Part shown: positions 1 through 11,748 of the stretch, piece after piece
Layout: every line of letters begins with the position of its first letter
How positions within the stretch are numbered: the first letter of the stretch is position 1
Origin: an uncultured Bacteroides sp.
GTDB lineage: Bacteria > Bacteroidota > Bacteroidia > Bacteroidales > Bacteroidaceae
Reading direction: 5' to 3'
Length of the DNA: 11,748 bases
Assembly: GCA_934716785.1 (NCBI GenBank)
Contig: CAKUYM010000113.1
Coordinates: 1-11,748 of the forward strand
Translations under genes and position numbers: made by a program
Notes under the pieces: generated by a model
Told to the model about the DNA's origin: nothing
What the model saw: the letters and a program-made list of their open reading frames with translations, nothing else
Databases searched by the model: none

Positions 1-27
1 CAACATGACCGTGCCTGCAAAACGATG

Positions 28-360
28 CTAATACGCAATCTTCAAGTTATCCAAGGCGGCCTTCGATACCGCAAATTCATCTCCCGCCTTGATGCGTTCA
101 AGAACCAAATTTCCCACCCGCCGGGCATCCTGCTCTGCACGGAAAGGTTTCTTTCCGGCAATGACGGGAATGAAAGGCTGTACAATGATCGTACGTTCGC
201 CCTCATGGATTCTATAACCGTATCCGTTCTCTCCGAGTTTCATCACTTCCAAGTGATAGCGAGCTGTCGAGTTCATAGTCCGGTAACAGGCAAGTCCGAC
301 AGTAAGCAACAAAAGAAGGCATCCTATACTTACTATTATTTTACTTCTCTTCATATTCAT
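28..360 (-). CDS. DUF4907 family small secreted or membrane-anchored protein
   Basis: This 110-residue protein has one N-terminal hydrophobic segment (about residues 6-24, after MKRSK), which is either a signal peptide or an anchor; a cysteine at residue 25 lies just after it but without a convincing lipobox. The rest is a compact domain with the pattern GYGYRI, a short strand, then IIVQPFIPVIAGKKPF and a helical tail (ARRVGNLVLERIKAG), which I recognise as the DUF4907 type found in Bacteroidetes. The gene is complete, ending in TAG. Its start overlaps the end of the Kelch lipoprotein gene by 14-20 bases, depending on whether Met1 or Met3 is used, so the two are probably translationally coupled and co-transcribed. 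The function is unknown; the shared operon suggests an envelope role with the Kelch protein. The family call rests on remembered sequence patterns. Confidence 0.8.
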   Translation of the reverse strand: MNMKRSKIIVSIGCLLLLLTVGLACYRTMNSTARYHLEVMKLGENGYGYRIHEGERTIIVQPFIPVIAGKKPFRAEQDARRVGNLVLERIKAGDEFAVSKAALDNLKIAY

Positions 361-1372
361 AAGGTTTCAGCTCCCAAGTATCATCGTAATAGGAAGAAGA
401 AGTGCTGCCGCCGGTTGTTATGAATCCCCGTGTTCCTGTTGAGAAACAAACAGCTTTCGCACGGGCACTGCCCTCAAAATTGGTCAGGTCCTCACCTTCC
501 CACAAGTCCGTGGCAGGGTCGTATATCCAATAATTGGTACGCAAGCTCCCGCCTGCAGTCTGTCCCACAGCCAAATAGCCTTTACCGTCTATCACAAAAG
601 CACAACCGTAACAGCGTGCGATAGAAGTGTAATCGTCATCATAGTCATCATCACTGGAATCTTTTATGTCACGCAACTTCTTCCAAGGGTTGGATGTATT
701 CGACGGATCAAAGCACCAGAAATCCGTAACATCCGCATTATTATTCTCACCGCCGCAGATATAGGCAACGTCATCAATGACAAAAACCTGTCCGCCCTGC
801 CGCTTCTGCCCGCCGAAACCATTGATAATAGTCCATTCTCCCTTGTCGCCAGCCGAAGGGTCAAACCGATAGAAATCCTTCTGATAATTTTCATCGTAGC
901 CCGTACCCAAATAGCCGTATTGCCCGATGCCGAAAGATAGTGCATACCGACGCCCACCTCCGGGATAGTCCGCCATCTGTTTCCAGGTATTCGTTGCCGG
1001 ATCATATTGCCAGCAATCATTCAGCACCGAACTGGTCTTCGCGTCATATCCGGTGGCGATATACCCTTTCGTCCCTACGGCAAAGCCTGTCGCAGCGTTT
1101 CGAGCTACGGCTTCTTCATTCATGTCCTTACATTGAGTCCACCAGTCATTATCAATGTCATACTCCCAACAGTCTTTCAGACGCTCTTTGTTGCTTCCCC
1201 GGTATCCGCCGCAAATGTATCCTTTGTTGCCAATAGTAAACCCGGCAGCATCATTACGCGCCACACCATCAAAATCCGAACGACGGTACCACACGCCTGC
1301 CGTATATTCCGTATCCTCCGTACATGCCGCCAATGAGAGCAGCACAACCACCATGCAAAGTAATTTATTCAT
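341..1372 (-). CDS. Kelch-repeat beta-propeller lipoprotein
   Basis: From the chosen start the protein is 343 residues with a lipoprotein signal peptide (MNKLLCMVVVLLSLAAC, lipidated Cys at 17), so it should be anchored in the cell envelope. Six Kelch-like repeats follow, each with a GF/GY strand, a G-G or T-G turn (KGYICGGY, KGYIATGY, YGYLGTGY, VAYICGGE, KGYLAVGQ, RGFITTGG) and a later W-x-YDP motif, predicting a six-bladed propeller. Such propellers bind proteins or glycans, and some are galactose oxidases or NanM-type mutarotases; no catalytic signature is visible, so a binding role is more likely. Upstream in-frame ATGs at 1396 and 1384 exist, but the predicted promoter puts the transcript start near 1400, and the signal peptide begins exactly at 1372. 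A DUF4907 gene follows with overlap, and a DUF4270/barrel unit diverges on the other side. Confidence 0.87.
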   Translation of the reverse strand: MNKLLCMVVVLLSLAACTEDTEYTAGVWYRRSDFDGVARNDAAGFTIGNKGYICGGYRGSNKERLKDCWEYDIDNDWWTQCKDMNEEAVARNAATGFAVGTKGYIATGYDAKTSSVLNDCWQYDPATNTWKQMADYPGGGRRYALSFGIGQYGYLGTGYDENYQKDFYRFDPSAGDKGEWTIINGFGGQKRQGGQVFVIDDVAYICGGENNNADVTDFWCFDPSNTSNPWKKLRDIKDSSDDDYDDDYTSIARCYGCAFVIDGKGYLAVGQTAGGSLRTNYWIYDPATDLWEGEDLTNFEGSARAKAVCFSTGTRGFITTGGSTSSSYYDDTWELKPYEYEEK

Positions 1373-1406
1373 TTTATTATCCATTAAATATGTCATTTAT
1401 CACCTG

Positions 1407-1436
1407 CAAAAGTAGGTGGCAACAGGCATGGACAAA
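1407..1436 (-). promoter_or_regulatory. Bacteroides-type promoter for the Kelch/DUF4907 unit
   Basis: Read on the minus strand there is TTTG (1436-1433), 18 bases, then TACTTTTG (1414-1407), an exact match to the -7 consensus TAnnTTTG with an acceptable spacer. The expected transcription start is near 1400, leaving about a 28-base leader to the ATG at 1372 and almost none to the ATG at 1396. The -33 TTTG forms the outer edge of the left arm of the inverted repeat. Confidence 0.65.
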
Positions 1437-1517
1437 AAAACTATCGACAAACTAATGCATTCTGTCTACCAGCAAAATAGAGGTCGACAAATAGTAAGGC
1501 TTAGTCGATAGTTTTTT
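1435..1517. repeat. 14-base inverted repeat between divergent promoters
   Basis: AAAAAACTATCGAC (1435-1448) and GTCGATAGTTTTTT (1504-1517) are exact reverse complements separated by 55 bases. Each arm has the form GTCGATAG followed by a T tract running straight into a TTTG -33 element, one facing left and one facing right. A GTCGAC palindrome lies between them at 1483-1488. The layout fits a shared activator site or operator, or T-tract promoter upstream elements. The arms are visible directly; the regulatory role is inferred. Confidence 0.7.
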
Positions 1518-1545
1518 GGAGGGCTGCTTAAAAGCTCTTCTTTTG
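1515..1545 (+). promoter_or_regulatory. Bacteroides-type promoter for the DUF4270/barrel unit
   Basis: TTTG (1515-1518), 19 bases, then TTCTTTTG (1538-1545), which matches TAnnTTTG at five of six fixed positions. The start point would be near 1552, giving about a 24-base leader to the ATG at 1576. This mirrors the geometry of the opposite promoter. It also argues against a longer coding start at the TTG at 1516, which would lie inside the promoter. Confidence 0.5.
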
Positions 1546-1575
1546 CCGTCACAAAACCAAAATCATCAGTATTGC

Positions 1576-2895
1576 ATGAAATCAATCTTAGTGCTTTTTT
1601 CGTTCCTTATATTCCTTTCTTTTTCTGCTTGCCTGGACGAATCATCCGCAATAGGTGGGAAATGGGTGGAAAGTTCATTCCGGAATGTACAGACAGACAG
1701 TTGCACCGTATCGCTCAGTACCATTCTTAGCGACTCACTGGCGACTTCGGGAGATACGGTCTGCCAGATAGGACACCGCAAAGATGAATTATGGGGAACT
1801 ATCACAGCCTCATTCTACGCAGAATACGAATTGCCCTCTTTCTCCTTTAATGACGAGACGGTATATGCATTCGATTCCATCACCCTCCGGCTTTACTCCT
1901 CCGGAAATTATTTGGGAGATACACTAAGCATCCATATGCACCGCCTGACAGAGAATATCCAATTGGACGATTACGGCTATCTATACAGCAGTACCAAGAC
2001 ATCGTATGAGACGACTCCCCTTGCCTCATTCAACCTCAGACCGACTCCCGGACAAAAGACCAAAGAACTGGAAGTGCGCCTGCCGGATGACTGGGGAAAA
2101 GAGTGGTTTGACCTCATGCTGCAAGATGCACGCCAGATGGAGTCACAGGATCTCTTCCATGATTACTTCAAAGGAATAGCCTTTATTCCGGACATCGCCA
2201 ATGGCACTTGCATCAACGGATTCCAAGTGAATGACTCCAGTATGTGCATCACGCTTTATTACCACGAACAGGCAGAAATCTCGACGGAAAAGACACTCGT
2301 ATTCAATGCCAGCAGTTCTCTTATATATAATAAGGTATCATACGACCGGAGCGGGACTCCGATTGAGGGATTGAAAAACGGAATAGACAATGCCTTGCCT
2401 ACCTCCCGGACAGAACACCAATGCTATCTGCAAGGCATGACAGGAATGTATATCGCCATCGACTTCCCACATTTGAACGACCTCTGCGCAGAAGGCGAAC
2501 TGGTGACCATCGAAAGCGCTACGCTACAACTCTATCCGGTGAAAGGGACTTACGATGGGATGTATCCGCTCCCGGAGAGTCTGACTCTTTATACGACTAA
2601 TGATGATAACGTGAGACAGGATGTCATCACCGACCTTACCGGAAGTTCTGTGCAAACGGGCAACTTGGTTGTGGACGATATGGCCTACGAAGAGACGTAC
2701 TATACATTCGACATCACCTCTTTCCTGCAGAACAACTTGGGAACAACCGGATACAACCGGCAGAAGTTGCAGTTATTCCTTCCCGACAACTTGTTCTACA
2801 CCACTCTGCAAGGGGTTATCTTCGGAGACAGCGAACATACGGCTAATAAAAAGAACTCCAAACTTATCGTACTCTACAAAACCTATCAACAATGA
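1576..2895 (+). CDS. DUF4270 family lipoprotein
   Basis: The protein is 439 residues with a lipoprotein signal peptide (MKSILVLFSFLIFLSFSAC, Cys19). The body has two beta-rich halves with DUF4270-type patterns: a strand motif near YAFDSITLRLYSSGNYLGDT, followed by a Leu-Tyr rich stretch, a central LFHDYFKGIAFIPD segment, and a second copy-like region with ESATLQLYPVKGTY and a C-terminal YNRQKLQLFLPDN. DUF4270 proteins are widespread in Bacteroidetes and of unknown function; the lipid anchor places this one in the envelope. The start at 1576 is preferred because it begins the signal peptide; a TTG 60 bases upstream would overlap the promoter. Its TGA overlaps the ATG of the barrel gene (ATGA), a sign of translational coupling and perhaps of a lipoprotein-barrel partnership. 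Confidence 0.82.
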   Translation: MKSILVLFSFLIFLSFSACLDESSAIGGKWVESSFRNVQTDSCTVSLSTILSDSLATSGDTVCQIGHRKDELWGTITASFYAEYELPSFSFNDETVYAFDSITLRLYSSGNYLGDTLSIHMHRLTENIQLDDYGYLYSSTKTSYETTPLASFNLRPTPGQKTKELEVRLPDDWGKEWFDLMLQDARQMESQDLFHDYFKGIAFIPDIANGTCINGFQVNDSSMCITLYYHEQAEISTEKTLVFNASSSLIYNKVSYDRSGTPIEGLKNGIDNALPTSRTEHQCYLQGMTGMYIAIDFPHLNDLCAEGELVTIESATLQLYPVKGTYDGMYPLPESLTLYTTNDDNVRQDVITDLTGSSVQTGNLVVDDMAYEETYYTFDITSFLQNNLGTTGYNRQKLQLFLPDNLFYTTLQGVIFGDSEHTANKKNSKLIVLYKTYQQ

Positions 2896-4097
2896 AAAAG
2901 ATTCAACTCTGCCTTTTGGCACTCTATACGCCCGTCCACTTATTGATGGCGCAAAACACGACGAACTCCCCAACTTCCATGTTCGGACTGGGTGAACTCT
3001 CTACCGGAGAGGGCGGACAATATGCCGGTCTGGGTGGTGCGGGGATTGCCCTACGGAGTTATAACTTCCTGAATAGCGCCAACCCGGCTTCGCTTACAGA
3101 ACTAAGCGAACAGCGGTTTCAGATAGATGCCGGTGTCATGGGGGCTTATCAAAGCTATTCGCAACGGGGAGCAAGCAACCGCTCCATCACAGGGAATCTG
3201 AATAACTTGAGCATCGGCTGCCGGATTATGCCACGATGGTATGGAGCTATCTTTATGGCTCCCGTGAGTAGCGTAGGATATGCCATCACGCTGAACGAAG
3301 AGGTGGCGGGCAGCAACGGGAGTACCGTTTCTTCGTTGTTTCAAGGTGAAGGCGGACTATCTAAAATGGGAATCAGCACGGCATATCTTTTCGGTAAAGG
3401 ACTTTCTATCGGAACGAATCTCTCCTACGTCAGCGGCACTATCACGCAGACGGAGACTCAAGGCAGTGCGTCAAAAGAGACGAGTTCATACAAACATACG
3501 TTTTATGCAGACTTAGGTGTGCAGTATAAATGGACCATCGACCGTGACCGTTCTTTCGTGGCGGGTGCCGTGTATGGTTATTCGCAGGACTTCAAGCAGG
3601 AGAACAGTTTGTACGTCAGCAGCAGTTCAGGCGGGGATGATATTGAAAAAGACTTGAGACGCTACCGACAATGCCTTCCGCAATTCTTCGGATTGGGAGT
3701 TTCCTACAACAGTCTGCGGTGGATGGCAACCATTGACTATAAGTATGTGGACTGGAGCCGGATGTAATCTTCACAATCCAATATCAGTTTTGAGAACCAG
3801 CACCGGCTGTCATTGGGCGGAAGATATACGTTGGGAAGTGTTTACCATAATCCGGTCAGTGTACTGTGGGGGACGGGAATCAGTAATTCCTATATCGTCA
3901 TCCAAAAGAAAAAAGCAACCGGATATTATATGAGTACCGGACTGAATTTGGGCTTGCGCAATAACAATGTGCTGTCCATCGGGCTGAAATATAAAGGGCA
4001 GATAAAAGTACCTACCGGCATGCAACGCGAAAACAGCCTTTCCCTGTTTCTCAACATCACTTTTTCCGAACGTACTTATCGTGCCAAGATACAATAA
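2892..4097 (+). pseudogene. FadL/SPYSRYG-like outer-membrane barrel, interrupted by an in-frame TAA
   Basis: The first 291 codons encode a signal peptide (MKKIQLCLLALYTPVHLLMAQ) and a barrel resembling the Bacteroidetes FadL-like family: an N-terminal SMFGLGELSTGEGGQYAGLG-type segment, then GIALR, NSANPASLTEL and alternating amphipathic strands. A TAA at 3765-3767 stops it inside a strand after DWSRM. Beyond it the same frame is open for 109 codons and looks like the missing barrel end: SFENQHRLSLGGRY, GLNLGLRNNNVLSIGLKYKG and a last strand SLSLFLNITFSERTY. No base is gained or lost, so one substitution (for example CAA to TAA) explains it. The full-length product would be about 401 residues; the truncated barrel should not assemble. 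The start overlaps the DUF4270 stop. Loss may be recent, or the stop may be a sequence error. Confidence 0.8.
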
Positions 4098-4157
4098 TAT
4101 TCATTCTTTTTTTATGCAAAATATTTGCAAATGAATGGTTTTCAAGAGAGGAATCCG

Positions 4158-4165
4158 TATATTTG
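4158..4165 (+). promoter_or_regulatory. -7 box of a Bacteroides-type promoter for the aminopeptidase gene
   Basis: TATATTTG is an exact TAnnTTTG match 33 bases before the chosen start codon. No perfect TTTG lies at the usual distance; the closest candidates near 4135-4142 are weak. The position makes a TTG at 4163 unusable as the start. Just upstream, GCAAA-ATA-TTTGC (4116-4128) is a short palindrome flanked by ATTCATT and AATGAAT, of unknown role. Confidence 0.5.
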
Positions 4166-4198
4166 CGCCCAAAACAAATTAATATGAATGTCATAAGA

Positions 4199-5383
4199 AT
4201 GAAAAAAAGTATCCTTATTGCTGCCTTGGGCTTATGTAGCTTAGGCATGACGGCACAAGACGCAAAACCCCAGGAGGGATTTGTTTTCACGACAGTGAAA
4301 GAGAACCCTATCACCTCTATCAAGAATCAGAACCGTTCGAGCACGTGTTGGAGCTTCTCCACACTCGGATTCATCGAATCAGAACTGCTCCGTACGGGCA
4401 AAGGCGAATATGACCTCTCCGAAATGTTCGTGGTGCACAAAACGATGCAGGATCGCGGCATCAACTATGTACGCTATCATGGCGACAGTTCTTTCTCTCC
4501 GGGTGGAAGTTTCTACGATGTATTATACTGTATCAAGAATTACGGTATCGTTCCGCAAGAAGTGATGCCGGGCATCATGTATGGCGACTCACTGCCCGTA
4601 CACAACGAACTGGATGCCGTAGCCGCCGGATATATCGGCGCCATCGCCAAAGGAAGGTTCAGCAAACTGACTCCGGTATGGAAAAACGGACTGGCTGCTA
4701 TCTATGATACTTATTTAGGTAAATGCCCAGAGAATTTCACTTATAAAGGCAAGGAATATACTCCGAAATCTTTTGCCGAGTCACTTGGGCTGAAGATTGA
4801 CGATTACGTATCGCTGACTTCTTATTCACACCATCCATTCTATACGCAGTTCTCTATCGAGATTCAGGATAACTGGCGCAACGGCTTGTCCTACAACCTG
4901 CCTATCGAAGAGCTGATGGCTGTAATGGACAACGCAGTGAAGAAAGGTTACACTTTCGCATGGGGCAGTGACATAAGCGAAGAGGGATTCTCACGTAACG
5001 GTATCGCTGTTATGCCGGATGCAGACAAGGAACCGGAGCTGTCCGGTTCGGACATGGCCCGCTGGACGGGACTGACTGCCGCTGACAAGCGTAGAGATAT
5101 CTACTCCCAACCTTTCCCTGAAAAGGATATCACTCAGGAAATGCGCCAAGTTGCTTTCGACAACTGGGAAACGACCGATGACCACGGAATGCTTATCTAC
5201 GGTATCGCCAAAGACCAAACCGGAAAAGAATACTTCATGGTGAAAAACTCTTGGGGCAAATCCGGCAAATACAACGGTATCTGGTATGCTTCCAAAGCAT
5301 TCGTAGCCTACAAGACCATGAACATTGTGGTACATAAAGACGCGCTTCCCAAAGATATCGCCAAGAAGTTGGGTATCAAATAA
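4199..5383 (+). CDS. Secreted aminopeptidase C / bleomycin hydrolase-like cysteine peptidase (C1B)
   Basis: A 394-residue papain-fold peptidase with a signal peptide (MKKSILIAALGLCSLGMTAQ), so it acts in the periplasm or outside. The catalytic set is intact: oxyanion Gln44 and nucleophile Cys50 in NQNRSSTCWSFS, His329 in DDHGMLIYG, and Asn350 in VKNSWGKSG. The spacing and the long insertion between Cys and His fit the C1B family (PepC/bleomycin hydrolase), whose members remove N-terminal residues from peptides, usually as hexamers. Known PepC and bleomycin hydrolases are mostly cytoplasmic, so the signal peptide points to processing of exogenous peptides. The C-terminal tail (AKKLGIK) is where family members place the residues that gate the active site. 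The start at 4199 opens the signal peptide; an ATG at 4184 is possible. It appears monocistronic. Confidence 0.9.
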   Translation: MKKSILIAALGLCSLGMTAQDAKPQEGFVFTTVKENPITSIKNQNRSSTCWSFSTLGFIESELLRTGKGEYDLSEMFVVHKTMQDRGINYVRYHGDSSFSPGGSFYDVLYCIKNYGIVPQEVMPGIMYGDSLPVHNELDAVAAGYIGAIAKGRFSKLTPVWKNGLAAIYDTYLGKCPENFTYKGKEYTPKSFAESLGLKIDDYVSLTSYSHHPFYTQFSIEIQDNWRNGLSYNLPIEELMAVMDNAVKKGYTFAWGSDISEEGFSRNGIAVMPDADKEPELSGSDMARWTGLTAADKRRDIYSQPFPEKDITQEMRQVAFDNWETTDDHGMLIYGIAKDQTGKEYFMVKNSWGKSGKYNGIWYASKAFVAYKTMNIVVHKDALPKDIAKKLGIK

Positions 5384-5405
5384 GAATATATCTCCCCGGT
5401 TTCCG

Positions 5406-6137
5406 TCAGGAAAGGCTTAACTTGCCGATATATTCCGTAAACTTTTCCTTATAATTATCACCGACAGGGATATAGGTATTCTTATCGAAAATGATACGGA
5501 GACGGGAAACTTCGGTAATCTTCTGAAGATTGACAATATAAGAACGGTGTACACGCATAAAATATGCGGGAAGCCGTTCTTCCATTTTCTGGAGACTGGC
5601 AAGAGTGACAATCGCCTTGTCTTCTCTTTCCACAAAGATACGCACATACTCACTCATGCCCTCAATATAGCGGATACGGTTCACGTCGATACGAACCACT
5701 CTATAGTCGCTCTTCACAAACAACGAATCTCCCTTTATCTGCGAAGTATTCCCCAACTCGCCCTGTTGCTCCAACAATCGGTATTCCAACTGCTTGCGGG
5801 CTTTGTCCGCTGCTTTCAGCAAGTCTTGAAACTCGAAAGGCTTCAAAAGGTAATCTACGGCATCCAGCTTAAAACCTTCTACCGCATACTCGGAATAGGC
5901 GGTGGTGAAGATGACAAGCGGCGGGCTGATCAGCGAGCGTATAAAGTCCATCCCGTTCAAGTCGGGCATATTTATATCCACGAATATCAAATCCACTTCT
6001 TCTTCAGCCAATACCTTCATTGCTTCGAAAGCATCCTGGCAGGACTTCACTAAAGACAAGAAAGGAACACGGGATATATAATCCGTCAATTGTGCCAATG
6101 CCAACGGTTCGTCATCTATTGCTAAACATTTCATCAT
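5406..6137 (-). CDS. LytTR-type DNA-binding response regulator
   Basis: The 243-residue protein has a receiver domain (about 1-120) with acidic pocket Asp8/Asp9, phosphoacceptor Asp54 (FVDINMPDLNG), Thr79 and Lys99 (LLKPF), all in place. A LytTR domain follows (about 138-240: LFVKSDYRVVRIDVNRIRYI, then FMRVHRSYIVNLQKI), which binds paired direct repeats in promoters. It should be phosphorylated by the kinase encoded just upstream; the kinase TGA overlaps the regulator ATG (ATGA at 6137-6134), so translation is coupled. The premature kinase stop near 6268 leaves terminating ribosomes about 130 bases short of this start and may lower its expression. Its targets are not shown; the adjacent operon is the obvious candidate. 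The next gene downstream is convergent, 22 bases away, with no clear terminator between. Confidence 0.93.
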   Translation of the reverse strand: MMKCLAIDDEPLALAQLTDYISRVPFLSLVKSCQDAFEAMKVLAEEEVDLIFVDINMPDLNGMDFIRSLISPPLVIFTTAYSEYAVEGFKLDAVDYLLKPFEFQDLLKAADKARKQLEYRLLEQQGELGNTSQIKGDSLFVKSDYRVVRIDVNRIRYIEGMSEYVRIFVEREDKAIVTLASLQKMEERLPAYFMRVHRSYIVNLQKITEVSRLRIIFDKNTYIPVGDNYKEKFTEYIGKLSLS

Positions 6138-7338
6138 AATAAAGGTATAATAAGTAATACATCAAAAGTCTGTTCTTTGTCACTGATGGAAAGCGTATAG
6201 TCATTGCCGAACAGAATCCGCAAGCGTTTGCGAATGTTTTCGAGCCCGATGCCGTGATGCTGCTCGTCTACCGAGCCATTATTGCTGTTTGTACAGCGGA
6301 AAGACAAGCGGTTGTCTTCCTCCAAACACGGATGAAAGATCTGTTGCGGTAACTGACGCCATGCTTAAAGGCATTCTCCACAAAAGAGATAAAAAGCAAT
6401 GGCGGAATCTGCACCTCAGGGATTTCGGCAGGGAACTCCGTCTCGATAGAGACTTTGTCGGTATAACGCAGGCTCATCAAGCCTATATAATTTTCAAGGA
6501 ATTGTACCTCGCGCGAAAGTAATGTGGTTTTATTGCTTGCTTCATAGAGCACATAACGCATCAGTTTGGAGAGCTCCACAAGTGTACTTTTCGCCTTTCC
6601 GGTGTCGATATCCACCAACGCATGAATATTATTGAGCGTATTCATGAAAAAGTGAGGATTAATCTGATACTTGAGATATTGCAACTCCGACTGCAAATGT
6701 TGGTGTTCAAGTTCTTTCAGCATTTCCTCGTCACGAAAGGACTTGAAAAAGAGTTTGATGGCAATATTAAACCCTACCATCAGAAAAGCAATAGCAAAAC
6801 GGACAAGATAGCGAATGTCAAAAGGCGGATGAGGAAGAGGACGCGGCGGCTTTTTGCGTTCAGGCTCATTCCACCGCATCTCTCCTTCCTCTTTAGCCTT
6901 CTCTCTCATCCTTATAATCTGATCTCTCGAGTTCTCTTTCATATCCCGGCGCATATCGTCACGTCCGAACTCCATTGGAAAATGTTCCTTAGGTTCTTTC
7001 GAGAAATGCTCCTTGGGATCTTTCGGAAAATGCTCCATAGAAGGAACCGGAGAGAGCAAACATATAATACCTATCAGGAAAAGAAGCGAAACGGCATATT
7101 GCCAATACTTCTTCTTAAAAAGCATGTAAGGAACCAAACCGTAATTGTTCAGCAAAAAAAGTGCGAAGAAAGGCAGGATGCCCAACCATGAATCGCGAAT
7201 GATCGTACGGACTTCATCCCTTTCAAGCCCGCCGCTCATGGCAAAATATCCGCCTATCAACGGAAGAAGAAATACTACAACCCAGATAGCTACATAAATG
7301 CCTTGCTCCAACAATTGCTGTTTACGCTGTCTTTCCAT
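6134..7338 (-). pseudogene. LytS-type sensor histidine kinase, frameshifted before the ATP G box
   Basis: The readable frame gives 356 residues: helices at about 14-34, 52-73, 80-97 and 177-198, with residues 98-176 predicted periplasmic, then a His_kinase (PF06580) domain with His229 in QINPHFFMN and the N box VENAFKHG (Asn322). After FIRVW (6327-6322) the frame runs into nonsense and stops at 6268. The neighbouring frame from about 6325 continues the domain: EEDNRLSFRCTNSNNG, then the G box HHGIGLENIRKRLRILFG, ending at the regulator start. The span is 1205 bases, so inserting one base (or four) restores about 401-402 residues. A lost T in the GTTTGG run, or loss of one TGGA unit, would both explain it. 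Without the G box the kinase should not bind ATP. A sequencing error is an equally good explanation. Confidence 0.85.
6964..7035 (-). repeat. 24-base tandem repeat in the kinase periplasmic loop
   Basis: Three imperfect in-frame 24-base units encode EHFPKDPK, EHFSKEPK and EHFPMEFG (residues 102-125). The first two differ at two residues; the third keeps only the first half. They open an unusually charged extracytoplasmic loop rich in His, Met, Asp/Glu and Lys/Arg. Confidence 0.8.
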
Positions 7339-7363
7339 GCTCTATTTATACCAAATAATAAGA

Positions 7364-7395
7364 CAAAGATAAAACTGATAATGTCTTTTTGCAAA
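7364..7395 (-). promoter_or_regulatory. Bacteroides-type promoter for the two-component system
   Basis: On the minus strand TTTG (7395-7392), 20 bases, then TATCTTTG (7371-7364), an exact match to both consensus boxes. The predicted start is near 7357, with a leader of about 19 bases to the kinase ATG at 7338. The kinase and regulator can therefore be expressed independently of the large operon upstream. Confidence 0.7.
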
Positions 7396-7423
7396 TAGAA
7401 TCGACCAAAGGATGGATTTCGAC

Positions 7424-7441
7424 GGTAAACAACTGTTTACC
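7424..7441. other. Perfect 7-base hairpin across the stop codon of the beta-helix gene
   Basis: GGTAAAC, loop AACT, GTTTACC. The right arm contains the stop codon of the minus-strand gene. There is no following T tract on the minus strand, so it is not a standard terminator; it could be a weak attenuator, an mRNA 3'-end stabiliser or a protein site upstream of the kinase promoter. Confidence 0.5.
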
Positions 7442-9443
7442 ATCCCCATCCACCAGGGCCACCGCCACCACCCGGCCGACCGCCTCCGCCGCCACCTCCG
7501 CCACCGGAAGTGCTGCCAACCTGAGTCACCATCGAACTGGCTGTGAAAGTATCTGCCTGCGTACCACCGGAATAGGTTGCCCCCGTGTATAATCCGAAGA
7601 ACTCGGAGCCACCGGTGACTGTTCCGCCTTTCGAGATGATGTAACTTCCGCCCGACGTTAAGTTCGGACTACTGAACAAGACTGTCATTTGCGAATAGGC
7701 GCGGGGAATCTGATAAGTGAGGATATCGGTACTGTCGGTCGAACGGATGTTCAGATATTGTCCATTTGAACCCGAACCGCCATAGATAACACTGCGCTGT
7801 GTGCATACGCTTGATGTCGGTGTACTTGTTCCACCACCAATGCCAAGGACAATGCCGCCGGTTATCTTAAAGGTATTTTGGTCACAATCGAGTCCGTCTT
7901 CGGGAACGGTAGTACCGGATGATACAACCACTCCGCCTGTGATAGTCAACGTACCGTTGGAGTCGATACCGTCATTGCCCGAACTGTAGCAGTAAATATT
8001 ACCACCGTTAATGACTATACTGTTGCTTGCATTCATACAATCGTCATAGCAAAGGGCGGCAACCATACCGTTATTGACAGTCAGCACACTTTTACTTTCT
8101 ATGCCTTCACTGCCTTCTCCACCGGTAGCTTTCACCAGCACTGTTCCGCCGTCGATTGTCAGTGCACCGTCTGCCTTGATACCCTTGGCAGATGAGCTGA
8201 GCCTGTTGTATGTGCACTGAGGTCCGGTAGTAATAACCTTCACCGTGCCATCACTGATAGTGACAGAACCGTCACAGTTTATTCCTTTGCCGGCTCCACC
8301 GGTACTTTGGATAGCTATTTCACCACCTGTCACAAGTATATTGCCATCACACTTGATTCCTGCACATGAGCTTAAATCATTATCTTCATAAAGAGCGGTT
8401 TGCGAGGTGAGTGCTGTCAGTTTGCCACCCGAGAAAGTAAGATTGCCGTCACAGGAGATACCTTTTGAAGCAGCTCCCGCAACTTCTGCCTGAATAGCGC
8501 CACCACTAATCAGTACGTCTTGGGCGGACTTCAGCCCATGCGCTTTATTGGCAGTTGTGGAGACTTTCACAAATCCGCCTGTCATGGTGATTCCGCCTTC
8601 CTCGCACTGGATAGCGTCTTCGGTGGAAGAAATGTTAAGCACTCCGCCGCCGATAATAACGGCATCATTGGTATGAATACCGTCTTTCTTGGCGGCAGCT
8701 ACCGTGATGTTACATCCGCTACGAAAACGCACATAATCATCGCTGGTGATAGCATGTTTGTAATTTCCGGTAACAGTCAGTAAGCCGCCACCGCTGAATA
8801 TCAACTGTCCTTCACTGAAAAAGCAGGCTTTCATATCCTCGCTATCAGTGGCCGATGTATAGGAGGAACCATCGGTTAAGGTATTCGTCGTTCCATCGGT
8901 ACATACCACAAACACGCGTTTGGAAGACTGTATATTTATAGCCGCGCCAACCGGATTAAGTATGGATACTCCCGACAATGACAGTTTGAACTTTTTCTCA
9001 CTATACACTTTAAACGAGCCGTCCGTTGTTGTCCCGTTCAACACATATTCCACTTTACCAACCGTAGAGTTGACCACAACATGTCCTCCGTTGACAGACA
9101 CTTCCACACCGGAAACATTATTGTTTACCGTTGCGGTAGTACCATTGTAGGTTATAGTCACTACGGACGTAAATTCAGAATTTTCAATAAAATCATCCTC
9201 ATCAGATGATACCGTTTCCGTCATACTTCCGTAAGTCGATTCATCGTTTTCATCGAAAGCGACGGTAAAATCCAACAAGTCTCCCGATTCTGCGGGTATC
9301 GTCGGATCAGACTGACTGCCTCCTCCGCTACCCGAACCGTCGACCAATGTACCTTCTTCTTCACCGAAGTCAAAAGCCTCTGTCGTGCAGCTTACCAATA
9401 GCAGCAACAATACCGACAGTCCAAACAATACATTTCTTTTCAT
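7437..9443 (-). CDS. Cthe_2159-like carbohydrate-binding beta-helix lipoprotein
   Basis: The 668-residue protein has a lipoprotein signal (MKRNVLFGLSVLLLLLVSC, Cys19), an acidic Gly/Ser/Asp/Glu linker to about residue 100, then a long right-handed beta-helix built from rungs of about 20-25 residues with recurring G-I-x-C-D-G turns (KGISCDGN, AGIKCDGN, KGINCDGS, KGIKADGA, DGIDSNG, DGLDCD) and TGG/SGG corners. This matches the Cthe_2159 / carbohydrate-binding domain family (PF14262); Cthe_2159 itself binds acidic sugars and calcium. About sixteen cysteines recur at rung positions, which is unusual for an exported protein and may form an internal stack. The C-terminus is a glycine-rich tail of about 20 residues ending GGPGGWGW. 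It is the last gene of the operon, 18 bases after the DUF2490 gene. I infer a surface-exposed binder of an anionic polymer. Confidence 0.88.
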   Translation of the reverse strand: MKRNVLFGLSVLLLLLVSCTTEAFDFGEEEGTLVDGSGSGGGSQSDPTIPAESGDLLDFTVAFDENDESTYGSMTETVSSDEDDFIENSEFTSVVTITYNGTTATVNNNVSGVEVSVNGGHVVVNSTVGKVEYVLNGTTTDGSFKVYSEKKFKLSLSGVSILNPVGAAINIQSSKRVFVVCTDGTTNTLTDGSSYTSATDSEDMKACFFSEGQLIFSGGGLLTVTGNYKHAITSDDYVRFRSGCNITVAAAKKDGIHTNDAVIIGGGVLNISSTEDAIQCEEGGITMTGGFVKVSTTANKAHGLKSAQDVLISGGAIQAEVAGAASKGISCDGNLTFSGGKLTALTSQTALYEDNDLSSCAGIKCDGNILVTGGEIAIQSTGGAGKGINCDGSVTISDGTVKVITTGPQCTYNRLSSSAKGIKADGALTIDGGTVLVKATGGEGSEGIESKSVLTVNNGMVAALCYDDCMNASNSIVINGGNIYCYSSGNDGIDSNGTLTITGGVVVSSGTTVPEDGLDCDQNTFKITGGIVLGIGGGTSTPTSSVCTQRSVIYGGSGSNGQYLNIRSTDSTDILTYQIPRAYSQMTVLFSSPNLTSGGSYIISKGGTVTGGSEFFGLYTGATYSGGTQADTFTASSMVTQVGSTSGGGGGGGGGRPGGGGGPGGWGW

Positions 9444-9461
9444 AACTTTTCGCTTGATATG

Positions 9462-10250
9462 TTAAAACTTAAACGAATATCCTACTCCAATTACGTGTCC
9501 ATCCGACTCATCCTCATCCGCCTTATTCTGATACAGATAATAAAAATCAAGAGAATGCTTCTTACTGAGTTTCCATTCCGTGCCCACTGTCCACCGCAGT
9601 TTTTCAAAAGCGACATTGTCATTCAATGAATGGAAAAGCTCGCACGAAGCATATGGATTAAAGGCGCACTTACGTATGTTATATCCTATCTGAATACGTG
9701 AGCGAAGTACGTTTTTTCCTTTTCCACTGATATATTCATCACTTTTCGCACTCCCGTCGTCACCGTCAAATTTCGGTACCGACTGGCTGGGATGGTAAGT
9801 GTATTGCCACCGCTCGCGAAGAGATAATGTGAAACGACGCCAGTCCGCTTTTCCCGTCAGCGACAAGTTGACACGATGCCTTGCCTGCCAGTATTCGGGA
9901 ATGTAATTTCCTTTTTTAGTAGTTTCCATCGGGTGGTAGTAATTGATAAAAGTATACCCGGCGGACGCCTTCAACCAACGGAACACTTTATAAGAAATAC
10001 CAGCCGACCCCGACCATCTCTCTACTGTCTGCAACCCGTCTCTGGTACGAAACTCCCCTTCCAAGGAAGCATTAAACCCGGGAAAGAGTTTTTTCTGCAC
10101 TTCCGCACTGGTCCATATACCGAAATCATCACTTTGGCCATAACACTTGCCTGTTCCCGCCATGCACAGGAAAATCATCAAGCGTGCCGTCCTTTTCGAG
10201 CCCCCCGACCACCTTTCTTTGTCTTTCAAACTGTTCATATTCTTATTCAT
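9462..10250 (-). CDS. DUF2490 family outer-membrane protein
   Basis: The 262-residue protein has a signal-like segment at about residues 21-38 (RTARLMIFLCMAGTGKCYG) after an unusually long charged N-terminus, so cleavage near Gln39 is likely. The mature part starts SDDFGIWTSAEVQKKLF and continues as alternating amphipathic strands (FNASLEGEFRTRDGLQT, WLKASAGYTFINYYHP, RFTLSLRERWQYTYHP, SLDFYYLYQNKA) and ends VIGVGYSFKF, a barrel-type aromatic C-terminus. This is the DUF2490 pattern, a family of small predicted outer-membrane barrels of unknown function. The start overlaps the DUF4956 stop by 8 bases, implying translational coupling; Met5 at 10238 is an alternative that would shorten the long n-region only slightly. 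It could be the outer-membrane outlet or anchor of the operon. Confidence 0.82.
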   Translation of the reverse strand: MNKNMNSLKDKERWSGGSKRTARLMIFLCMAGTGKCYGQSDDFGIWTSAEVQKKLFPGFNASLEGEFRTRDGLQTVERWSGSAGISYKVFRWLKASAGYTFINYYHPMETTKKGNYIPEYWQARHRVNLSLTGKADWRRFTLSLRERWQYTYHPSQSVPKFDGDDGSAKSDEYISGKGKNVLRSRIQIGYNIRKCAFNPYASCELFHSLNDNVAFEKLRWTVGTEWKLSKKHSLDFYYLYQNKADEDESDGHVIGVGYSFKF

Positions 10251-10917
10251 TCTCTTTAGGGAAACGAGTTAACGTATCAATCGTATTTATTTCATTCTTT
10301 AAAGGTTCATAATAGACTTTCAGCATGGCGGTGTCACGTAGAAAGTCTATGTGCCCAACTTCCACACGAATTATGTCAAGCCCGGTGCGCTCGCGTAAGT
10401 CGCGCAGTAAATCCTGTTCCCTTTCGGGTTTTATCAGTTCTATCTTGTCATACTGTATCAATTTGCATGAAATGTGCTTCAGCCACCGATTGCTTTCGCA
10501 AATCCATATACACAGGACGAAAAGCAAGTTGGTACATAGCAATTCGGCATGACTGATAGCTACGGCAAGAGCATTGATCACAGAGATGGCGATGATTACA
10601 AACAAATAAGTCATCTCGCGTACGGGCATCGACTCCGTCCTATATCGTATGATTCCGAAAATGGCAAACAATCCGAGTGCAAAACCTATCTTCAGCTTGA
10701 CACTTCCCAACAGAAATATCATCAAGAAAATACTAATGCTAATTAGTGTAAAGGTAAAATAGTAATCGCGCCGCTTGCTCTTGGGGTAGTAAAACAAATG
10801 AATGATACAGGAAACAACTAATAAGTTAAAACAAAACCGCACCAATAGTTCCATGAATCCTGCACTATCCAACAAGGGTGTCTCTATTAACGTAATATCA
10901 TTCAATTCGTCCAACAT
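10243..10917 (-). CDS. DUF4956 integral membrane protein
   Basis: This 224-residue inner-membrane protein has hydrophobic segments at about 25-43, 52-71, 78-91, 103-121 and 126-141 and a soluble C-terminal domain of about 80 residues. The family hallmark is plain: FGIIRYRTESMPVREMTYLF at 87-106, between two membrane segments. The cytoplasmic-looking tail (DLLRDLRERTGLDIIRVEVG, then TAMLKVYYE) resembles a small ferredoxin-like alpha-beta fold. DUF4956 genes typically sit beside VTC-domain polyphosphate polymerase genes, as here (60 bases downstream of the VTC gene), so a role in anchoring that enzyme or moving its product across the membrane is the usual guess; no activity is proven. The stop overlaps the start of the DUF2490 gene. 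Confidence 0.9.
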   Translation of the reverse strand: MLDELNDITLIETPLLDSAGFMELLVRFCFNLLVVSCIIHLFYYPKSKRRDYYFTFTLISISIFLMIFLLGSVKLKIGFALGLFAIFGIIRYRTESMPVREMTYLFVIIAISVINALAVAISHAELLCTNLLFVLCIWICESNRWLKHISCKLIQYDKIELIKPEREQDLLRDLRERTGLDIIRVEVGHIDFLRDTAMLKVYYEPLKNEINTIDTLTRFPKENE

Positions 10918-10948
10918 AGTGTTCTGTTTTTAATGTTATTATATTAAT

Positions 10949-10986
10949 TATCTTATACTTGTACTTGTATCTTATACTTACACTTG
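10949..10986. repeat. 19-base direct tandem repeat spanning the VTC gene stop
   Basis: TATCTTATACTTGTACTTG (10949-10967) is followed immediately by TATCTTATACTTACACTTG (10968-10986), differing at two positions. The second copy includes the last two codons and the TAA of the VTC gene (10978-10980); the first lies in the gap before the DUF4956 gene. It reads as a local duplication; no palindrome or terminator is formed. Confidence 0.8.
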
Positions 10987-11748
10987 GGCTATTTTTTGTG
11001 CTAACCTTAACTTGGGTTTGAAACGGTTGTACTTCACTCCGCCGACTGTTAGTGCAGTACCCACACAGTATTTGCTGATTCCCGAAGGGCGCACGTGCAG
11101 TTCATGCAATATCTCGCTGATGGGCGATCTGGTTCTTCCATCGCGTTTCAATTCTATGATTGCAAGATTGTCCAACTTTGCCTCCATACCCGTAAGAAGA
11201 TGGTGGAATTGCACGTCCGTATCAATAGTCAGGCGTTCTGTCATGGCTTTATTCACTAATGTAATACGGTGGAAACGATTCTCCAGTAGAAGCTGTAGGG
11301 CAGACAGTTCATACCAAGCATAATTACGTAGAAATTCCTCTCCTCCATCCATACATAAAGTATCTATTCCCTGTATGCGGATACGCTTTTTATCCGTCCG
11401 TCCTTTGTTATTCTTGTTTTTCACTTCCAGAAAAGTCAAGCCGGAAGAGACATAAGTACGTACACGTATCTTTTCACGTATCACCCTTCCGTTTTGGTGG
11501 GCCATATACATGGCATAATCCGGTGTATCAAGATAGGTGGTATGATAAGCAATGTCACGCTCCCCCTCTACCTTTTGCACACGGTAATAGGAATTTGCGC
11601 GTTGCAGTATATCTGTCAGCCCGGACTGGGAAACAATGTATTTCGTATCCGTACGGTTCATCAGGCGGATAGTGCTCATCTCTTCCAAAGATATGGGAGA
11701 AAAGGCGGAAAGCACGGAGGAAACATTGTATTTTTCGTTCATATTCAT
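10978..11748 (-). CDS. VTC-domain polyphosphate polymerase family protein
   Basis: The 256-residue protein is a soluble, single-domain member of the VTC / triphosphate tunnel family. Visible tunnel residues include Lys36 (RTDTKYIV), the basic strand Arg91-Glu-Lys-Ile-Arg95-Val-Arg97, Glu108 and Lys110 (FLEVKNKNNKGRTDKKRI), Arg172 (TERLTIDTD), Glu199/Lys201 (AIIELKRDG) and Lys225 (SGISKYCVG). These match in order the phosphate- and metal-binding positions of yeast Vtc4, which makes polyphosphate from ATP. There is no SPX domain, as is normal for bacterial members. The ATG at 11748 is the last base of the window, so a start further upstream cannot be excluded; Met3 is an alternative, but the length is already typical. 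It heads the visible operon with DUF4956. Polyphosphate synthesis is inferred from the family; a role on another triphosphate is possible. Confidence 0.88.
   Translation of the reverse strand: MNMNEKYNVSSVLSAFSPISLEEMSTIRLMNRTDTKYIVSQSGLTDILQRANSYYRVQKVEGERDIAYHTTYLDTPDYAMYMAHQNGRVIREKIRVRTYVSSGLTFLEVKNKNNKGRTDKKRIRIQGIDTLCMDGGEEFLRNYAWYELSALQLLLENRFHRITLVNKAMTERLTIDTDVQFHHLLTGMEAKLDNLAIIELKRDGRTRSPISEILHELHVRPSGISKYCVGTALTVGGVKYNRFKPKLRLAQKIAQV

Follow-up and report, generated by a model that had tools for sequence, protein, structure and literature searches.

The stretch of DNA analysed here (the window) comprises 11,748 nucleotides of an uncultured Bacteroides species (GenBank assembly GCA_934716785.1, contig CAKUYM010000113.1, positions 1 to 11,748) and ends in a minus-strand run of four genes, which encode a VTC-domain protein, a DUF4956 membrane protein, a DUF2490 protein and a Cthe_2159-like beta-helix lipoprotein (Table 1). 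The first two may together form a synthase-exporter for polyphosphate. The genes are tightly packed: VTC and DUF4956 are 60 base pairs (bp) apart, DUF4956 overlaps DUF2490 by 8 bp, and a gap of 18 bp separates DUF2490 from the Cthe_2159-like gene. All four products lie far above their Pfam cut-offs (VTC 115.8 bits, cut-off 23; DUF4956 203.5, cut-off 30.6; DUF2490 136.2, cut-off 29.8; Cthe_2159 252.2, cut-off 25.8), and the coordinates and families that an earlier interpretation from the DNA letters (the sequence-only reading) had given for this same-strand cluster are confirmed.

Bacteroides proteins are among the named nearest relatives. CotH, reported as absent from the window, has no match among the ten window proteins scanned, and any gene upstream of the cluster would lie outside the window, which stops where VTC starts. 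The related genome of Bacteroides ihuae (G003) is also without a CotH match. Of the four-gene set, Bacteroides thetaiotaomicron has at least BT3498-99. Past the Cthe_2159-like gene, the same-strand run extends into genes for a LytS-type histidine kinase and then a LytTR regulator.

Table 1. Genes of the minus-strand run in the window (aa, amino acids)
Feature	Position	Strand	Remark
VTC-domain protein of 256 aa, probably a polyphosphate polymerase	10978..11748	-	Pfam VTC (PF09359); no earlier gene of the run within the window
DUF4956 protein of 224 aa, predicted to lie in the inner membrane, likely the conduit that partners VTC	10243..10917	-	Pfam DUF4956 2.4e-60
DUF2490 protein, predicted outer-membrane beta-barrel	9462..10250	-	Pfam DUF2490 1.4e-39; signal peptide and C-terminal Phe seen by eye
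Cthe_2159-like lipoprotein of 668 aa with beta-helix, predicted to bind polymer at the surface or in the periplasm	7437..9443	-	Pfam Cthe_2159 6.5e-75
LytS-type histidine kinase, likely regulator	6268..7338	-	Pfam His_kinase 3.2e-24; frame broken near C-terminus
LytTR response regulator, likely kinase partner	5406..6137	-	Pfam LytTR 7.6e-21, Response_reg 1e-20

The VTC enzyme and its DUF4956 partner

The predicted structure of the window VTC protein (predicted local distance difference test, pLDDT, 93.8) has a triphosphate tunnel fold closest to that of yeast Vtc4, which tops both structure-match lists. Vtc4 is also matched by sequence, with a profile built from VTC proteins of Bacteroidota (1.9e-17). 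Twelve tunnel or catalytic positions of Vtc4 were compared, and the window protein has the identical residue at ten, among them R264, R266 and E426 (here R95, R97 and E199) and the catalytic Lys458 (K226); K455 and H283 are not kept. Apart from R264, R266, E426 and K458, these positions are ones that we take to belong to the Vtc4 tunnel. The sequence-only reading had claimed that the tunnel residues are present, and this claim is supported. Joint change of R264, R266 and E426 served to inactivate yeast VTC, as described in passages of PMC9911596, and in a plant hydrolase the counterpart of Lys458 matters little according to an excerpt of PMC4641920. VTC is the sole Pfam match at 0.001 in the bacterial enzyme, with neither an SPX domain nor a Vtc1-type membrane domain, and its DUF4956 partner has no Pfam match over cut-off except DUF4956.

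For DUF4956, AlphaFold2 (68 sequences; mean pLDDT 84.2, predicted template-modelling score 0.70) predicts five helices (residues 18-47, 50-69, 73-93, 99-120 and 123-142) followed by a C-terminal alpha/beta domain. R49, R93, R100 and R177 are invariant, and R91 is found in 67 of the 68 rows; by the positive-inside rule, the loop residues among these conserved arginines are predicted to face the cytoplasm. The channel of yeast VTC is lined by Lys and Arg of its first transmembrane helix, TM1 (passages of PMC9911596).

A divergent DUF4956 group (13 rows), members of which stand behind VTC in a sister class of loci described below, aligns with MgtC over 207 columns with a probability of 97% and a score of 78, whereas the controls for this alignment (two reversed and ten shuffled) all scored 19.5 or less. 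When this group was split, the VTC-first part reached 97% and the DUF4956-first part 45%. The DUF4956 group of the window has no direct match to MgtC (probability 0.8%) and aligns with the divergent group over 111 columns at 89%. Five of the 68 DUF4956 relatives match the MgtC domain weakly (best 0.0072), and one VTC-adjacent divergent DUF4956 matches PF02308 at 9.9e-5 with 23.8 bits, under the cut-off of 31.4. As judged from these profile alignments, divergent DUF4956 is probably related to MgtC, though remotely. MgtC/SapB proteins share with DUF4956 the architecture of five predicted helices and a C-terminal alpha/beta domain, but the window DUF4956 differs from them in lacking a direct match and in having an invariant basic motif of its own. 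An in-frame join of DUF4956 and DUF2490 (P0123, 465 aa) was also seen, with five member sequences and on one contig.

Genes that accompany VTC and DUF4956

Gene neighbourhoods were surveyed in sets of two kinds. With the window VTC, at least 597 stretches of genome_contigs matched, and the best 80 of 586 relative-encoding stretches form, together with the window, a similarity set of 81 sources; evenly drawn samples comprise 99 Bacteroidales genomes and 118 Bacteroidota genomes (these two share at least G003), and 14 genomes served as controls. In the similarity set, 80 sources have DUF4956, 76 have DUF2490 and 50 have the Cthe_2159-like gene. The succession VTC-DUF4956-DUF2490 is retained in 76 of the 81, which exceeds coincidence, in a set picked for its similarity to the window.

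VTC occurs in 51 of the 99 evenly sampled Bacteroidales genomes, in 55 copies, and DUF4956 lies on the same strand within 8 kilobases (kb) of 54 of these, the exception being a 143-aa frame (G104). In the Bacteroidota sample, all 23 VTC-bearing genomes (of 118) also have DUF4956, which lies within 5 kb of 26 of the 27 VTC copies (two of them about 3 kb off; the exception is an 87-aa frame), and 13 of 36 genomes with DUF4956 are without VTC. The same three of the 14 control genomes match both families. The association of VTC with DUF4956 that had been suspected from the window is therefore strong, but the other partners are loosely attached: within 8 kb of the 55 Bacteroidales copies we found DUF2490 for 19, CotH for at least 13 (12 of them on the same strand) and Cthe_2159 for five. 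By the refuting condition that the sequence-only reading had set, rare co-occurrence in Bacteroidales, the proposal that the four genes form one unit is not upheld, since all four families come together at only five of the 55 copies, three of these in the window order, and are commoner in window-similar loci. The core unit is the VTC-DUF4956 pair, and its other partners vary.

Genome-level links among the 99 Bacteroidales genomes, by statistics that ignore kinship, extend this pattern. CotH is found in 40 of the 51 VTC-bearing genomes and in 18 of the 48 others (p 4e-5), so CotH is not replaced in general. The corresponding counts are 28 and 7 for DUF2490, 17 and 3 for Cthe_2159, and 31 and 35 for PPK1, with no association between it and VTC (p 0.29); because PPK1 is present in so many VTC genomes, and unlinked to VTC, the latter is not a simple stand-in for the cytosolic enzyme.

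The clustering with CotH known from Gram-positive bacteria is supported by passages of PMC7112168 and by fetched records. The plasmid collection gave six matches, of which five were fetched and Enterococcus was left out, and VTC and DUF4956 stand side by side in all five. Paenibacillus cellulosilyticus, a species without an outer membrane, encodes VTC-DUF4956-Cthe_2159 with no intervening gene (Cthe_2159 269 bits), in line with the claimed association of these families, and a Clostridium perfringens locus holds VTC genes and CotH together (excerpt of PMC2879425). The window run shares the VTC/DUF4956 adjacency with this Gram-positive group, and Cthe_2159 with Paenibacillus cellulosilyticus, but differs in being without CotH, in its inserted DUF2490 gene and in the LytS-LytTR genes that come after. 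Adjoining a DUF4956-VTC pair, we also observed a 1007-aa fusion of CotH with a right-handed beta-helix (L124:6277-9300).

The trans-envelope pathway of the sequence-only reading gains strength from HlyD-type adaptors next to sister VTC-DUF4956 pairs. We fetched 21 loci of the sister class, in which a divergent DUF4956 follows VTC. The Bacteroidales sample supplied seven, all that it has of this class, and the phylum sample 14 out of 20 fetched loci. Each of the 21 has a same-strand gene for an HlyD-type adaptor; in 19 loci this gene immediately precedes VTC (spacing -17 to 111 bp), and in L192 and L202 it lies downstream. Sixteen adaptor products were scanned, and 15 have matches to HlyD or adaptor families in public databases: those of L192 and L202 pass the cut-off of Pfam HlyD_3, and 13 match NCBIfam adaptor families (L117, L118, L122, L123, L190, L191, L193, L195, L196, L198, L199, L200 and L203) with best E-values of 3.5e-7 to 4.4e-15, below the curated cut-offs and hence at superfamily level only. 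The L201 product has no NCBIfam match and is called HlyD by our own profile only, by which alone the adaptors of L119, L120, L121, L194 and L197 were also assigned.

HlyD-type genes also follow DUF4956 in ten of 17 loci without VTC (10/13 in the phylum sample, 0/4 in the Bacteroidales sample), although nine of the ten are close relatives and represent few events. A TolC-like gene then follows in nine of the ten, its likeness being judged by eye with no Pfam or NCBIfam match; among the HlyD products scanned here, that of L189 exceeds four Pfam cut-offs and that of L177 one, and that of L188 stays below. These arrangements recall tripartite HlyD/TolC exporters. They differ in that HlyD lies within two genes in none of 107 loci of the window class and that no ATP-binding cassette, resistance-nodulation-division or major facilitator superfamily pump was found among the neighbours scanned. 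In a third class, where DUF4956 comes before VTC, the six loci fetched show no HlyD or DUF2490 in the vicinity. In three further VTC-less loci (L153, L154 and L183), the genes after DUF4956 encode a CotH-like protein and a calcineurin-like phosphoesterase, in two of the loci with ankyrin repeats; this set could possibly serve phosphate transfer outside the cell.

Outer-envelope proteins and regulators

DUF2490 is the third gene in the 76 similarity-set sources that retain it, and four of the five without it (L045, L052, L069, L080) stop at or just past VTC-DUF4956; in the fifth, L062, our own DUF2490 profile found none within 2.5 kb. The gene is near 75 of 78 window-class loci in the similarity-chosen set and near ten of the 29 other window-class loci fetched, and by Pfam in the even Bacteroidales sample near 19 of 37 window-class VTC copies and none of the 18 others. 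In the loci seen, with five records on the Gram-positive side, DUF2490 thus appears in diderms only. In 23 of the 81 sources there is a gene of one small family, which typically separates the Cthe_2159-like gene from DUF2490 (one copy is on the opposite strand), and the copy at L072:12338-12799 has a type IX secretion sorting tail.

The window lipoprotein belongs to the Cthe_2159 family by both domain and beta-helix: its residues 109-345 match the solved chain 4peu_A (E 1.4e-19), and its lipobox (LLLLLVSC) can be read straight from the sequence. Cthe_2159 itself binds cellulose and polygalacturonic acid (passages of PMC6712302), which would be compatible with a putative binding of a phosphate chain.

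LytS and LytTR genes lie downstream of the cluster in six of the 81 sources, in the window order in five (the window and L001-L004) and on the opposite strand in the sixth (L073). Because these families follow both the window-type cluster and DUF2490 in three CotH-bearing loci (L132, L134, L135), a shared regulator is suggested. The window kinase frame is broken before the ATPase part (6130-6480, minus strand) and its remainder lies in another frame, which may be a sequencing error. By eye, the N-terminal half of the kinase shows a long charged inter-helix loop with repeated EHFPKDP-like units; from the topology this loop is likely outside, and it could sense metals or polyanions. Elsewhere in the window, an outer-membrane-protein-like gene (2892-4097, plus strand) has an in-frame stop near 3767, beyond which the same frame resumes.

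Polyphosphate export and its alternatives

On sequence and modelling grounds, we see roughly an even chance that VTC-DUF4956 is a bacterial VTC-like synthase-exporter, likely of polyphosphate. VTC would use ATP to make polyphosphate on the cytoplasmic side of the inner membrane and DUF4956 would carry the growing chain across it, so that the pair would be the bacterial equivalent of the yeast VTC complex; in the window organism, we infer that DUF2490 may receive the chain at the outer membrane, to carry or anchor it there, and that the lipidated beta-helix protein may bind it at the surface. The best-supported account, by analogy with yeast, is that synthesis by VTC would be coupled to passage through DUF4956. 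The likeness to the eukaryotic complex (Vtc4 with Vtc1 and Vtc3) lies in the tunnel-domain polymerase fold with most of its catalytic residues, and in an enzyme that adjoins a membrane protein with conserved basic residues, some of them predicted to face the cytoplasm. In contrast to that complex, the bacterial pair is without SPX and Vtc1-type domains, its enzyme and membrane part are separate genes, DUF4956 is of another family, and the predicted target is the cell exterior instead of the vacuole. Envelope export is favoured because HlyD accompanies both sister pairs and many VTC-less DUF4956 genes, and because divergent DUF4956 resembles MgtC.

Four other explanations can be set beside export. 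Polyphosphate could stay in or at the cytoplasm, with DUF4956 as regulator or membrane anchor and with DUF2490 and the lipoprotein as separate envelope functions on the same transcript. The optional nature of the DUF2490 and Cthe_2159-like genes speaks for this, as does the remote MgtC similarity itself: known MgtC proteins regulate ATP synthase and phosphate uptake, and a regulator or anchor role has been proposed for some. We nevertheless consider a cytoplasmic store unlikely, given that HlyD beside sister pairs and many VTC-less DUF4956 genes has no role in it and that PPK1 is already present in 31 of the 51 VTC-bearing genomes.

Alternatively, VTC might add phosphate or polyphosphate to an exopolysaccharide or lipid carrier, and the export genes would move the modified glycan. 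The Gram-positive CotH-polyphosphate polymerase-DUF4956 group adjoins pel genes in some species (passages of PMC7112168), glycosyltransferases lie near the cluster in Pseudobutyrivibrio and Planococcus, and the ligands of Cthe_2159 are glycans. However, there is no glycosyltransferase among the ten scanned proteins of the window or among the ten annotated neighbour clusters (of 20 clusters found in at least five loci besides the target families; pel was not searched by name), and a carrier seems distinctly improbable to us.

Still lower we rate a triphosphate tunnel hydrolase (tripolyphosphatase) that uses imported or surface polyphosphate. The structure-match lists place YgiF, AtTTM3 and ThTPase in the same fold class as the window VTC, and Asp34 occupies the second site of the acidic patch, as matched by motif to AtTTM3 Glu2/Glu4 (excerpt of PMC4641920). 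At the first strand-1 site, where CYTH-type triphosphate tunnel metalloenzymes have Glu, the window protein has Arg32, which is invariant in alignment A1 and is Arg in 23/23 rows of A3. That the genes are neighbours by lineage only, sharing a transcript in Bacteroides and Prevotella for unrelated processes, would suit the rarity of the four-gene set (5/55 in the even sample) but is scarcely credible, as the VTC-DUF4956 pair is conserved both in Bacteroidota and in Gram-positive records and occurs in either gene order.

Beyond the synthase-exporter itself, a wider scenario is conceivable but doubtful: VTC-DUF4956 could be of the ancestor type of eukaryotic VTC, with the MgtC-like DUF4956 family as a polyanion translocase, and polyphosphate could leave through HlyD in some Bacteroidota or, in Bacteroides, DUF2490, coating the surface via beta-helix lipoproteins or feeding external CotH-type kinases. 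There is no ATP outside the membrane, where such kinases would use the exported polymer.

The CotH-polymerase-DUF4956 group was known. Apparently new are the DUF2490/Cthe_2159 arrangement, HlyD beside VTC and the DUF4956-MgtC link, of which our literature search found no report. Bacterial VTC proteins appear in the literature found as annotation only, and the two-gene pair makes the question of their function directly testable. If polyphosphate export by the VTC-DUF4956 pair is true, common gut and rumen Bacteroidales would hold a second polyphosphate route beside PPK1, one by which the polymer reaches the cell exterior and could there bind metals and influence contact with the host. DUF4956 and DUF2490 would then gain likely functions and Cthe_2159 proteins a new role, the MgtC superfamily would be tied to polyanion movement, and the pair would offer a simple bacterial model for the coupling of VTC synthesis to membrane transit.

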